Part shown: positions 22,192 to 34,754 of the stretch, piece after piece | How positions within the stretch are numbered: the first letter of the stretch is position 1 | How the letters are laid out: each line of letters starts with the position of its first letter | From: Sedimenticola sp. | Lineage (GTDB): Bacteria; Pseudomonadota; Gammaproteobacteria; Chromatiales; Chromatiaceae | DNA: 39,293 nt | Assembly (NCBI GenBank): GCA_026994195.1 | Contig: JALWRH010000114.1 | Span: forward strand, 1 to 39,293 | Reading direction: 5' to 3' | The notes under the pieces: generated by a model | Databases searched by the model: none | The model's input: only the letters and a program-made list of their open reading frames with translations | Told to the model about the DNA's origin: nothing | Made by a program: the position numbers and the translations under genes

Positions 22192-22294
22192 TGGCAGTGT
22201 GTCCGGCGGTTCGCGGTATTGAAGTAATTCTACACCTTATCTGGGGATTTGCATCGTGCAGCCAAGTCAATAAGGTAAACAGGGTAGTTTTTCA

Positions 22295-22323
22295 TTGACC
22301 TGCAAGGTCAATATCAGTATTTT
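22295..22323 (+). promoter_or_regulatory. ilvI promoter with palindrome over the -35
   Basis: TTGACC (22295-22300), 17-nt spacer, TATTTT (22318-22323) is a good sigma70 promoter about 60 nt before the ilvI start. The -35 forms half of a perfect inverted repeat TTGACCT-GCA-AGGTCAA (22295-22311), a natural operator position for a repressor or Lrp-like protein. Confidence 0.6.
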
Positions 22324-22385
22324 ACAATGTTTGGATTTTGTCCCTTGAGACAAGCCCTGGTTGGGCTATTTTGGAGGTTACTGCG

Positions 22386-30459: not shown

Positions 30460-32970
30460 ATGAACGTCAGTCTGGCCGCTGATGCTCTTCTGGTTACCGT
30501 GGCCGTGGTTTGCACTGCGCTTCTGATCAGAAAACGCGGGGATATCTCACGCGAGTTCCGGAAGAGCTGGCGCAGTGTGATAACCGGTATGTATTGTGCC
30601 AACATCGGCCTGATCTTGAATCTGACCCGTGATTATGAGGGCCTGTCCCGGTTTCTGGTGGTTGGCCCGACAGAGATCAACCTGATACTCAAAACCCTGT
30701 TCTACGTACTCTGCATGTTGTTGATCTTCAATGGCGTGCGGCAGTGGTACCCCCTGATTCTCGGGGTGCAACGCAGTGGAGTGCAGCAGGCTAGGCTGTA
30801 TCGTAAGCTGGTGGAAGAGGCGAACAGCATATTTCTGCGTTGGGACAGCCAGGGGAAAATCGTTTCCATCAACAGGTATGGAGAGGAACTGTTCGGCTAT
30901 AGCAGGCATGAACTGGTAGGAAAGCCTGTGGTGGGTACGATTGTGGCTGACCAGGATGCGGAAGGCTTCGATCTTGCTGCCATGATAGAAGATATTCGGC
31001 GCAACCCGGAAAGCTACCGGCACAATGAAAATGAAAACATAACCCGGGATGGCCGTCATGTCTGGATAGCCTGGCGCAACACCTACATCACTGAAGGGCA
31101 AAATGATGAGCCGGAATTGCTCTCCATTGGTGTGGACATGACCGGCAGGAAACTCATGGAAGAAGCCATATATGCCCTGGCTTCTTCCATAAGTTACGGG
31201 GAAGGAGGGGACGTTTCCCTGGGGAATACCATGCGCCACCTCGCCAAAGCCTATGGCGTGAGATACGCCTACTATGCGGTCTACGCGGATGAGGAGCAAC
31301 AGTCCTTGCGCGTGCTGGCCATGTGGAATGGGCGGGAAGTGGTTTCTGGTGAGGTCTACGATATCGAGGGAACACCCTGCAAAGATGTATTGGCGGGTTC
31401 CCTGGATATCGTCGAAGAGCAGTTGCTGTCAAAGTACCCCACAGACAGTATTCTTCGGGAACTGGGGATTGAGAGCTATTTTGGCACCGTTCTCAAGGAT
31501 GCCAGCGGCAAGGTCATCGGCTTGATTTCTGTGATGGATACCCGTCCCATGCGGCTTCTGGAACAGAGTCGTTCGGTACTCTATGTGTTTGCGGATCGTA
31601 TCAGTGGCGAACTGGAACGCAGGCATGCGGAAGAGGATATTTATCGCCTCGCGCATTATGATGTCCTTACCGGTTTGCCCAACCGGTTGCTGTTTCATGA
31701 TCGTCTGGAACAGGCAGTGGCTCATGCCAGTCGCAACAAGCAGTTTGTGGCTCTGCTGTTTCTCGACCTCGACCGGTTCAAACATGTAAATGACAGTATT
31801 GGACATGCCGGTGGCGACATACTGTTGAAAGAAGTGGCGGAACGGCTGCAAAAGTGTGTGCGTGATTCAGATACCGTAGCCCGTATGGGCGGAGATGAAT
31901 TTATTGTTCTGCTTTCCGACTTCTCCAGTGAAGAAGAATTGCTGAAAACCGCCAGCCTCATGGCGGATGAGTTTGTAAAGGTGATTTCCCATCCTTTCTA
32001 CATCGAAAGTATGGAGTTCTATGTGTCCGTAAGCATTGGTATTACCGCCTTCCCCCAGGATGGAAGCAACATTGACTACCTCATCAGAAATGCGGATATC
32101 GCCATGTACCATGCCAAGGACAAAGGGCGTAACCGTTATGAGTATTACCATGCCCGCATGAACGAGATTGCGGAGAAGCGCAGTCGCATGGAAAGTGAAC
32201 TGCGGGTGGCTGTGGAAAAGGATCAGCTGAAGCTCTGGTACCAGCCCGTGGTGAATGTTAAGACGGGCAGGATTCTGTGGTTTGAAGCCCTGTTACGTTG
32301 GCAGCATCCGAAGCATGGCCTGGTGATGCCAGAGGATTTTATCGCCATGGCGGAGGAATCCGGCTTGATTCTTTCCATCGGTGAATGGGTGCTGGAAGAA
32401 GTATGCCGGCAATTGCAGACCTGGAAGGAGAGAGGTATGCCTGTAGACACCCTGGCGCTGAATCTTTCCATGCGGCAGTTGGAAAGGCCCGGACTGATTG
32501 CTGCCCTGGATCGCCTCACCCGGCAATATGGTGTCAAAGCGGAACAACTGATACTGGAAATCACCGAAAGCATGCTCATGGAAGATCCGGGCCGCACCTT
32601 GCCGGTGGTACGCATGCTGTCTGAGAGAGGTTATGCCCTGGCCATGGATGATTTTGGCACTGGCTATTCCTCATTTGGCCAACTGCAGCGGCTGAATGTC
32701 GATTCGCTAAAGATTGATCGCAGCTTTGTGGCGCGGTTGGGGGAAGGGGATAGCGCAGAGAGCATTGTTTCAGCCATTATCGGCATGGCGGGAGAACTGG
32801 GCATGCGGGTAATCGCGGAAGGCGTGGAGAGCCGGGAGCAAATGGATTTCCTGCAACAGCAGGGGTGCCATTTTATGCAGGGGTTCTACACGGGGTATCC
32901 CATGGAAGCGAAGGCCTGCGAACAATACGTCCTTGCGGAGAAACACGCTTGGCATGAGGCAAACACTTAG
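30460..32970 (+). CDS. Membrane-anchored PAS-GAF-GGDEF-EAL c-di-GMP enzyme
   Basis: This 836-aa protein has N-terminal membrane helices (~4-22, 42-57, 75-100), a PAS domain (~112-230, IVSINRYGEELFGYSRHELV), and a GAF-like domain (~235-385). The GGDEF domain (395-560) has GGDEF at 477-481 and the inhibitory I-site RDSD (468-471) five residues before it. The EAL domain (575-825) has EAL at 609-611, NLS (668-670), DDFGTGYSS (730-738) and ELGMRVIAEGVE. All key residues for both cyclase and phosphodiesterase activity are present, so it is a potentially bifunctional c-di-GMP enzyme. It sits between pssA and leuA, 88 bp after pssA. The net direction of activity cannot be told. Confidence 0.95.
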   Translation: MNVSLAADALLVTVAVVCTALLIRKRGDISREFRKSWRSVITGMYCANIGLILNLTRDYEGLSRFLVVGPTEINLILKTLFYVLCMLLIFNGVRQWYPLILGVQRSGVQQARLYRKLVEEANSIFLRWDSQGKIVSINRYGEELFGYSRHELVGKPVVGTIVADQDAEGFDLAAMIEDIRRNPESYRHNENENITRDGRHVWIAWRNTYITEGQNDEPELLSIGVDMTGRKLMEEAIYALASSISYGEGGDVSLGNTMRHLAKAYGVRYAYYAVYADEEQQSLRVLAMWNGREVVSGEVYDIEGTPCKDVLAGSLDIVEEQLLSKYPTDSILRELGIESYFGTVLKDASGKVIGLISVMDTRPMRLLEQSRSVLYVFADRISGELERRHAEEDIYRLAHYDVLTGLPNRLLFHDRLEQAVAHASRNKQFVALLFLDLDRFKHVNDSIGHAGGDILLKEVAERLQKCVRDSDTVARMGGDEFIVLLSDFSSEEELLKTASLMADEFVKVISHPFYIESMEFYVSVSIGITAFPQDGSNIDYLIRNADIAMYHAKDKGRNRYEYYHARMNEIAEKRSRMESELRVAVEKDQLKLWYQPVVNVKTGRILWFEALLRWQHPKHGLVMPEDFIAMAEESGLILSIGEWVLEEVCRQLQTWKERGMPVDTLALNLSMRQLERPGLIAALDRLTRQYGVKAEQLILEITESMLMEDPGRTLPVVRMLSERGYALAMDDFGTGYSSFGQLQRLNVDSLKIDRSFVARLGEGDSAESIVSAIIGMAGELGMRVIAEGVESREQMDFLQQQGCHFMQGFYTGYPMEAKACEQYVLAEKHAWHEANT

Positions 32971-32989
32971 GTTATAGTCAGCCTAACCT
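32949..32989 (+). promoter_or_regulatory. leuA leader promoter with palindrome over the -10
   Basis: TTGGCA (32949-32954), 18-nt spacer, TATAGT (32973-32978) is a plausible sigma70 promoter inside the end of the c-di-GMP gene. AGGTTA (32969-32974) and TAACCT (32984-32989), 9 nt apart, form an inverted repeat covering the -10 and start point, as an operator would. Confidence 0.5.
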
Positions 32990-33011
32990 TATACGAAGAA
33001 TTGTTTAGACC

Positions 33012-33104
33012 ATGATTTGGCAAGCCCAGCTTCACTGCAAACTGCGTGAACCGGTATTTTCATACCGGGGCCTGCTCCTGCCTGTTGGTCCGCTGCTGCC
33101 CTGA
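33012..33104 (+). CDS. Leucine-rich leader peptide upstream of leuA
   Basis: This 30-codon open frame starts at ATG 33012, about 27 nt after the predicted transcription start, and stops at TGA 33102-33104. Seven of 30 residues are Leu, and the last ten are LLLPVGPLLP, with codons CTG CTC CTG and CTG CTG close to the stop. This is the form of an amino-acid attenuation leader for a leucine gene. A perfect hairpin CCGGTAT-TTTC-ATACCGG (33051-33068) lies just before the Leu cluster. Weak points: no strong ribosome site precedes the ATG, and no U-run terminator follows. See the regulatory region at 33097-33199. Confidence 0.55.
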   Translation: MIWQAQLHCKLREPVFSYRGLLLPVGPLLP

Positions 33105-33199
33105 TGGGCATAGATGACACACCCGCCCTGGCGAGGGCCAAAGCAACGCAAGACAATCCAACAAAACCAGAAAACAGATCCCTGACCAACGGGATGGAG
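33097..33199 (+). promoter_or_regulatory. Candidate leuA attenuation region with alternative stems
   Basis: Four short segments can pair in exclusive ways: TGCCC (33097-33101) with GGGCA (33106-33110); GGGC (33106-33109) with GCCC (33125-33128); GCCCT (33125-33129) with AGGGC (33134-33138). Then 33139-33180 is rich in C and A and poor in G, as in Rho-loading sites. Finally ATCCC (33178-33182) can pair with GGGAT (33191-33195) next to the leuA ribosome site GGAG (33196-33199). There is no U-run, so Rho-dependent or translational control is more likely than intrinsic termination. Confidence 0.45.
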
Positions 33200-33206
33200 T
33201 TGCCTG

Positions 33207-34754
33207 ATGAGCAGTGAAAAATTGATTATATTTGATACAACCTTGCGTGACGGGGAACAAAGTCCCGGCGCGTCCATGACCCGTGAGGAGAAGATCCGCA
33301 TCGCCAAAAAGCTGGAGTTGCTGCGAGTGGATGTGATCGAAGCGGGTTTTCCCATCGCCAGTGAAGGCGATTTTGATGCAGTGAAAGCCGTTGCGGAGTC
33401 AGTCAAGGACTCCACCATTTGTGGCCTGGCCCGGGCGCTGGAAAAGGATATCGATCGCGCTGGTGAAGCTCTCAAACCCGCCAATTCAGCGCGTATCCAT
33501 ACTTTTATCGCCACTTCACCCATCCACATGCAGCAGAAGCTGCGCATGCAGCCGGATCAGGTGGTGGAGCAGGCCGTGTGGGCGGTGAAACGTGCCCGAA
33601 ACTATACGGATAACGTGGAGTTCTCTGCCGAGGATGCAGGACGTTCTGAAATGGACTTCCTGTGCCGTATCGTGGAAGCCGCTATCGATGCCGGCGCCAG
33701 TACCATCAACATTCCCGATACGGTGGGCTACAACCTGCCGCACCAGTTCGGTGAGACCATCCGTGAACTCATGGAGCGGGTGCCCAACTCGGACAAAGCC
33801 GTGTTCTCCGTACATTGCCACAATGATCTGGGGCTGGCGGTAGCCAATTCCCTGTCTGCCGTACTCAACGGTGCTCGCCAGGTGGAATGCACCATCAATG
33901 GTCTCGGTGAACGGGCTGGCAATGCCTCTTTGGAGGAAGTGGTCATGGCCGTGCGGACCCGCCAGGACATGTTCCCTTGTGACACCACCCTGGATACCAC
34001 CCAGATCGTGTCCTGCTCCAAGCTGGTGTCCAGCATCACCGGCTTCCCGGTGCAGCCCAACAAGGCCATTGTCGGCGCCAATGCTTTTGCTCACGAGTCC
34101 GGCATCCACCAGGATGGAGTGCTCAAGAACCGCGAGACTTACGAAATCATGCGCGCCGAGGACGTGGGCTGGAGCCACAATCGCATGGTGCTGGGCAAGC
34201 ATTCAGGACGTAACGCCTTTCGCACCCGTCTCAAGGAGCTGGGTATAGAGTTCAGTTCTGAAGAAAAGCTCAATGCTGCTTTCCAACGCTTCAAGGCGCT
34301 GGCCGACAAAAAACACGAAATCTATGACGAGGATCTGCAGGCCGTGGTGTCCGAGTCCGTGCATGAGCTGCGTGATCCCCGTATCAAGCTGGTGTCTTTA
34401 AAGGCTTGCAGTGAGACTGGTGAAAGGCCGGTGGCGGATGTGGTGATCTCTGTGGATGGTGAAGAAAAGGCGGTTTCTGCTGCCGGGGCCGGTCCTGTGG
34501 ATGCGGCGTTTCAGGCCATTGAATCCATGTTGAAGACGGGCGCCAGGCTGACGCTGTATTCGGTGAACAATATCACCAGTGGCACGGATTCCCAGGGGGA
34601 GGTCACCGTGCGCCTGGAAAAAGACGATAAGCTGTTCAATGGACAGGGCGCGGATACAGATATCGTTATCGCTTCCGCCAAGGCTTACATCAACGCCGCC
34701 AACCGTCTGATGACCCCTGTTGAAAGGGAGCATCCCCAGGTGGGAGACGTCTGA
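33207..34754 (+). CDS. leuA: 2-isopropylmalate synthase
   Basis: This enzyme condenses acetyl-CoA with 2-oxoisovalerate, the committed step to leucine. The 515-aa product has the family start [20 protein letters not shown], the metal site [20 protein letters not shown], and [20 protein letters not shown], followed by the linker [20 protein letters not shown]. The C-terminal LeuA regulatory domain for leucine feedback is present (~residues 390-500). GGAG lies 7 nt before the ATG. The gene is monocistronic-like behind its own promoter and leader; the UDG gene starts 4 bp after its stop. Confidence 0.98.

Follow-up and report, generated by a model that had tools for sequence, protein, structure and literature searches.

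How can leucine supply be signalled to leuA when the leader in front of the gene carries no intrinsic terminator? This question is raised by a contig of Sedimenticola sp. (GenBank assembly GCA_026994195.1, contig JALWRH010000114.1), whose 39,293 nucleotides (nt) are called the window below. The leuA gene, encoding 2-isopropylmalate synthase, is located at 33207–34754 on the plus strand (NCBIfam equivalog NF002087, 912.7 bits versus a cut-off of 729). Its Shine-Dalgarno (SD) motif GGAG lies at 33196–33199, with the first base 11 nt before the ATG, and all leader elements described here are on the same strand. A first-pass annotation of the window had proposed a leucine-sensing leader peptide that acts "by Rho or by translation" instead of through an intrinsic terminator, and the comparative data support this proposal. 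Judged from these comparisons, the leucine leader before leuA is almost certainly real and widespread, and its folds probably allow a stalled ribosome to switch leuA on without a textbook terminator.

A leucine-rich leader frame conserved upstream of leuA

The leader peptide frame of the window comprises 30 codons and a TGA stop codon (33012–33104). The encoded peptide, MIWQAQLHCKLREPVFSYRGLLLPVGPLLP, ends with LLLPVGPLLP and contains seven leucines, five of them within the last ten codons, exactly as annotated in the first pass. In all 15 genomes of the genus, LeuA was present and the end of the leader was found together with the two hairpins H1 and H2 described below (one contig, L004, starts inside the leader), and both codons before the final proline encoded leucine in 15 of 15 cases. 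Outside the genus, the element was present in 40 of 64 leuA upstream regions of the family. These represent the best 64 of 136 non-genus genomes with a LeuA-type match, some of which are partial or paralogous, and G050 and G132 were skipped. "Without element" means that the motif TGCCC...GGGC was lacking, which applied to 24 of the 64 regions (the leuA start was found for 23 of them); a diverged form is possible in these 24, none of which is among the 67 matches in the order reported next.

A covariance model was built from 53 family sequences and contained only H1 and H2. It had a single match in the window's own genome, and it matched 67 of 170 genomes from the order, 87 of 370 genomes drawn from the class, and, in a draw of 397 from the phylum, 7; three of the latter seven loci (L169, L172, and L173) show no leuA downstream. 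At 84 of the 88 places in the class, leuA followed within about 360 nt, the median distance from H1 to leuA was 122 nt, and 44 families were represented among those 82 class loci whose family is known. In addition, a plain DNA pattern that made no use of proteins was applied to 84,980 species, each represented by a single genome. It yielded 84 stretches, 66 of which were located within 600 nt upstream of leuA. The remaining 18 comprised three that run off the sequence end (L251, L256, and L282), 13 that resemble chance matches, and L283 and L286.

For the frame analysis, a set of 136 leaders was assembled from 55 family loci (15 of the genus and 40 others) and 81 class loci. From the 88 class places, L081, L082, and L084 were dropped because they coincide with family members, L153, L165, and L166 because they have no leuA and are not leader-like, and L132 because no leuA start was found. 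In the last twelve codons, leucine accounted for 810 of 1632 codons (49.6%), compared with 148 (9.1%) and 62 (3.8%) in the two shifted frames, although part of this enrichment is built in, because both the covariance model and the choice of frame favor leucine. At a single position, the synonymous codons CTG, CTA, CTC, CTT, and TTG were all observed. The stop codons were TGA in 71, TAA in 37, and TAG in 28 leaders, and the stop was found at the position of the H1 loop in 97 of 136 leaders, having shifted in the others. The variety of synonymous codons, the use of all three stop codons and the shifted stops together argue that the leader frame is translated. The ratio of nonsynonymous to synonymous differences (pN/pS) pointed mildly in the same direction, with 0.58 in frame versus 0.77 and 1.04 in the shifted frames for nine close genus members. 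Non-conservation, which the first-pass annotation had named as fatal to its proposal, is thus not what was found: the frame, the leucine codons, and the stems H1 and H2 are kept in much of the Gammaproteobacteria.

Two covarying hairpins and a candidate pseudoknot

The four segments TGCCC (33097–33101), GGGCA (33106–33110), GCCCT (33125–33129), and AGGGC (33134–33138) had been annotated as capable of forming stems 1:2, 2:3, or 3:4, and all were located at these positions. Stem 1:2 corresponds to H1 (33097–33110), which carries the stop codon of the leader frame in its loop, and stem 3:4 corresponds to H2, also called S1 (33125–33138; GCCCT-GGCG-AGGGC). In 82 further sequences outside the model, 35 double-change cells were counted for H1 and H2 versus 9.2 in shuffles, none of 500 shuffles reached 35, and 7 of the 10 pairs were changed on both sides; as the alignment was fitted to the model, this count is biased in its favor. 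H1 and H2 are nearly invariant within the genus, whereas two additional hairpins covary. H0 (33051–33068, CCGGTA/TACCGG) is located inside the leader frame and showed double-sided changes in 4 of 6 pairs in 14 genus sequences. H3 (33178–33195) directly precedes the SD motif of leuA, as had been noted from the window, and showed such changes in 2 of 5 pairs in the genus. Over all 136 leaders, the 40 nt ending 8 nt before leuA folded better than shuffles, with a mean z of -1.05.

The loop sequences of H1 include GUAA, UUCG, and CUAG. In seven leaders (L036, L048, L053, L054, L056, L060, and L109) a sense codon replaces the stop codon in the loop and the peptide extends to LLPCGA*; other extended peptides end with LLPSGR*, LLPLGR*, or LLPFWAFK*. 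H1 is retained in these seven and in other leaders with a moved stop. The PCGA end presumably resembles that of the E. coli ilvGMEDA leader peptide.

The loop of H2 is GGCG in 98 of 136 leaders, and the core CCYGGCGRGG plus a downstream CGC is nearly constant in sequence wherever it is present. A CGC followed within 18 nt after H2 in 91 of the 98 leaders with a GGCG loop, versus 22.3 expected from shuffling, and the rest had CGT or a later CGC. In the window, the loop bases GCG (33131–33133) could pair with CGC (33147–33149) to form the proposed pseudoknot stem S2 (33131–33149). Variant or enlarged H2 loops were parsed by hand in seven leaders, replacing an energy-only parse that was judged to pick S2 or other hairpins often, a choice that is open to selection. 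Six of these loops (L032, L096, L109, L115, L136, and L058) re-pair over 5–7 bases and one (L151) does not. The chance of such runs was 0–0.07 against the downstream bases of other leaders and 0.003–0.49 by shuffling, the worst single case being L109, whose run was reached in 49% of shuffles; for L151 the value was 1.0. When loop and downstream bases were compared automatically in the 38 leaders whose H2 loop is not GGCG, no signal emerged (2.71 versus 2.76, p 0.70). As sequence evidence, the GGCG-loop and hand-parsed cases support a candidate pseudoknot, in which the H2 loop probably pairs downstream. A second type of leader (L113, L139, L141, L146, L148, L155, L156, L164, and L167) has the usual H1 and leucine codons and a plain H2 without GGCG, often followed by ACC or CCC.

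The position of the stop codon in the H1 loop, the possible pseudoknot at H2, and the possible pairing of the leucine codons with the leuA start region, treated next, all go beyond the first-pass annotation.

Predicted pairing of the leucine codons with the leuA start region

In the window, the leucine codon segment 33069–33090 was predicted to pair with 33184–33204 in a base stem that covers the SD motif (predicted pair probabilities 0.77–0.99). This stem and H3 are mutually exclusive, which would give a simple two-state switch. An RNAalifold consensus of 14 genus sequences offered an alternative base stem, CGCTGCT (33091–33097) with AGCAGTG (33210–33216, leuA codons 2–4), the columns of which hardly vary. 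With enough charged leucine tRNA, the ribosome would reach the leader stop codon and depart, H1 and H2 would fold, and the vacated run of leucine codons would pair with the ribosome-binding or start region of leuA, which would then be little translated; the untranslated transcript may also be cut short by Rho. Under leucine shortage, a ribosome stalled on the leucine codons would block this pairing, so that H3 could form, the SD motif GGAG would be free, and leuA would be expressed.

The pairing tests covered leaders that have a GGAG-type site and whose spacer does not exceed 170 nt (105, 124, or 32 sequences, depending on the test). In folds of whole leaders, the SD motif of leuA was mostly paired, and the 30 nt of leucine codons accounted for roughly half of this pairing. 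In 124 leaders its unpaired fraction was 0.19 when free, rose to 0.31 when the leucine codons were masked, and was 0.21 with either of two control masks; a gain above 0.2 was found in 38 of the 124 upon masking of the leucine codons and in 9 and 8 with the control masks. The pairing of the SD motif to the leucine codons was 0.418 in 105 leaders, compared with 0.265 after permutation of the codon order (p 0.0006) and with 0.318 in GC-matched chimeras carrying the start regions of other genomes (p 0.0025). When a single leader per family was used (n=32), the value was 0.49 versus 0.305 for permuted leaders and 0.353 for chimeras (p 0.022 and 0.035, respectively). For 48 family leaders it was 0.402, versus 0.249 with start regions of leuA genes that lack the element (p 0.011). 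All 15 genus members carry the motif AGCAG, the complement of CUGCU, in the start region of leuA, as do 25 of 40 other family members with the element, versus 5 of 23 family members without it (p 0.0018 for the latter two groups). Local sequestration by H3 was also considered and rejected: in the window, the SD motif abuts H3 and is not inside it, and in folds restricted to the 70 nt preceding leuA, the SD motif was unpaired to a mean of 0.45 over 131 leaders.

Several results weigh against control at the level of translation through this pairing. The tests count related sequences as independent, apart from the one restricted to a single leader per family. Pairing to the leucine codons exceeded 0.3 in no more than 57 of 105 leaders, AGCAG was found in just 22 of 81 class members, and the base stem showed no fixed register across the leaders. 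For the register of the window, no covariation was found within the genus: 10 double-change cells were counted versus 6.9 in shuffles, and 77 of 500 shuffles reached this number, which includes the unchanging H1 and H2. The total pairing of the SD motif barely changed in the controls, because it finds other partners (0.814 versus 0.800 in chimeras, p 0.056, and versus 0.785 after codon permutation, p 0.033). A plain duplex energy of the leader with the SD motif was uninformative, because a control segment gained equally. Inspection of the window revealed no visible ribosome site for the leader frame, so that the doubt already voiced in the first pass stands. Within the genus, masking of the leucine codons exceeded both control masks in only 4 of 14 leaders (L001, L002, L003, and L006). 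Because of this low number, we put the chance that the leucine-sensing leader peptide element controls leuA mainly at translation, as modeled above, slightly below even.

The explanation that competes most directly is Rho-dependent attenuation, in which a C/U-rich leader and an A/C-rich, G-poor linker would load Rho in the absence of a ribosome, and a ribosome stalled on the leucine codons would mask part of the site, with transcripts extending into leuA only when leucine is scarce. The linker (33139–33177, delimited by the composition profile of 136 sequences) had been pointed out in the first pass, and the 42 nt from 33139 indeed contain 12 C and only 5 G. Over the whole set, the C/G ratio was 1.6–1.8 in the leader at positions -30 to 0 and 1.9–2.3 in the linker at +40 to +70, which has 14–18% G. 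Such a linker fits a Rho site, but it also fits a simple lack of structure, base composition indicates Rho sites only weakly, and leucine codons are pyrimidine-rich regardless. The missing U-run after H2 is compatible with Rho, and H1 and H2 might both loop out in the manner of boxB in phage lambda tR1. However, Rho loading leaves unexplained both the conservation of H1 and H2 and why the predicted pairing between the leucine codons and the leuA start region exceeds that of the controls. We consider it rather unlikely as the main output, and translational control more likely. A protein that binds the conserved RNA, mainly H2 and the pseudoknot, with the leader peptide being secondary, is improbable. 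The near constancy of the core CCYGGCGRGG plus CGC would suit it, and a protein was favored by the authors who described the actinobacterial LEU element (PMC1262725). On the other hand, in-frame conservation of leucine with synonymous change is hard to explain without translation, and a plain hairpin replaces the GGCG hairpin in several leaders.

A classical transcription attenuator, with H2 as intrinsic terminator and 2:3 as antiterminator, is very improbable. Stems 1:2 and 3:4 exist and are conserved, and in the window GGGC (33106–33109) can pair with GCCC (33125–33128). However, the three-way switch proposed in the first pass is not supported: helix 2:3 has four pairs in the window, and of the 45 class members whose H2 has a GGCG loop, 35 offer only two to three contiguous pairs. 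Cognate 2:3 runs were slightly longer than permuted ones (3.66 versus 3.56, p 0.013), and with so small an excess, 2:3, which is weak outside the family, was rejected as an antiterminator. No intrinsic terminator was found on the plus strand of the leader in the window, as claimed before, and at least four T within 8 nt after H2 occurred in 1 of 98 GGCG-type hairpins. With no U-run in the other 97, H2 was rejected as an intrinsic terminator. That the frame and the stems arose by chance is a negligible alternative. The sequence of the window alone folds only mildly better than shuffles (z -1.9, 8 of 200 shuffles as good), and because a single fold is barely unusual, the case rests on conservation; the comparisons within genus, family, and class, the frame test, the covariation, and the DNA pattern refute chance.

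Relation to known leaders and surroundings of the locus

The leader of the enteric leu operon, represented in Rfam as Leu_leader, has an intrinsic terminator and an antiterminator. The window had no match to Rfam 15 at the gathering threshold, and up to an E-value of 10 only two unrelated families appeared, one snoRNA and one lncRNA. The Shewanella leu leader has a leucine-rich peptide before leuA, an intrinsic terminator, and an antiterminator (PMC2659441). The present leader shares with the enteric and Shewanella leaders the leucine-rich peptide before leuA and hairpins after the leucine codons, but differs from them in the absence of a U-run, the weak 2:3 helix, and the absence of an Rfam match.

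The closest known system, by described architecture, appears to be the LEU element of Actinobacteria, which combines a leader with a leucine run, a pseudoknot between the leucine codons and leuA, and a stem of leucine codons with the SD motif of leuA (Seliverstov et al. 2005, PMC1262725). Its authors judged sensing by the ribosome unlikely because of Streptomyces mutants, and no mechanism was settled (PMC1262725). What is claimed from this description is a likeness and not a membership. Both systems are located upstream of leuA and share the leucine-run peptide, a pseudoknot (a candidate here), a base stem of leucine codons with the SD motif (predicted here), and the lack of a described terminator. 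They belong to different phyla, and, unlike in the LEU element, the stop codon here is mostly in the loop of the separate hairpin H1, the candidate pseudoknot consists of a small GGCG loop with CGC, the base pairing has no fixed register, and leuA follows at the median distance from H1 given above.

Two further actinobacterial systems are similar in part. The leuL1 peptide of Streptomyces lividans, a leaderless peptide of 15 residues with a leucine run, is encoded upstream of leuA without a typical intrinsic terminator, as here, and the available part of the report does not mention a stop-in-loop hairpin (PMC8079986). For cysteine genes of Mycobacterium smegmatis, translation attenuation is mentioned, in which an upstream open reading frame occludes the downstream SD motif until ribosome stalling frees the site (PMC13236596). 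The proposed model shares this principle and differs in the amino acid, leucine instead of cysteine, in the RNA, and in the phylum.

In a search of open-access literature, no paper was recognized as an account of a gammaproteobacterial leuA leader that has a pseudoknot or lacks a terminator, which is no proof of absence. The leader may represent an unnamed RNA family of Gammaproteobacteria, a translational leader sensing leucine, in which the stop codon of the upstream frame lies in a stable hairpin loop, a small pseudoknot folds the spacer, and the leucine codons are handed to the ribosome-binding region of leuA. We regard this full description as plausible, but doubtful. If it is true, the architecture of the LEU element either arose a second time here or is a very ancient inheritance. 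The leader would equip a large group of mostly uncultured gammaproteobacteria with a leucine sensor. Leaders of this type would escape any attenuator search that takes intrinsic terminators as its starting point. The element also offers a clean test of translational versus Rho-dependent attenuation in amino acid biosynthesis, and it bears on the question of how the LEU element works.

The promoter proposed for the leader, TTGGCA-18 nt-TATAGT (32949–32978), was recovered in a box search. It matches 10 of 12 consensus positions, and shuffles of the region contain on average 0.4 such sites. Similar boxes were detected by pattern in 13 of 15 genus members (the window included), 31 of 40 family members, and 14 of 81 class members. 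The first-pass annotation had taken ilvC to be the upstream neighbor of leuA, but this is a gene for a GGDEF/EAL protein (30460–32970), the 3'-end of which overlaps the -35 box; ilvB, the gene of the small subunit, and ilvC lie about 7.5–11 kb upstream.

Upstream of ilvB, which starts at about 22386, a block TTGACCTGC...AATATCAGTATTTTACAATGTTT (22290–22330) is kept in 11 of 13 genus loci and is probably a promoter or operator. A leader peptide before ilvB was rejected, as a frame of 22 codons at 22327 is not conserved among the 13 loci. In L029, L030, and L034 a promoter TTGGCA...TATATT is kept about 100 nt before leuA and no leader motif follows, perhaps because the element was lost naturally while the promoter stayed. 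Contigs C494 and C226 of genome G004 (L175, L203, and L251) both stop within the leader element of leuA, which could reflect a break of the assembly at this point or a mixture of two strains.

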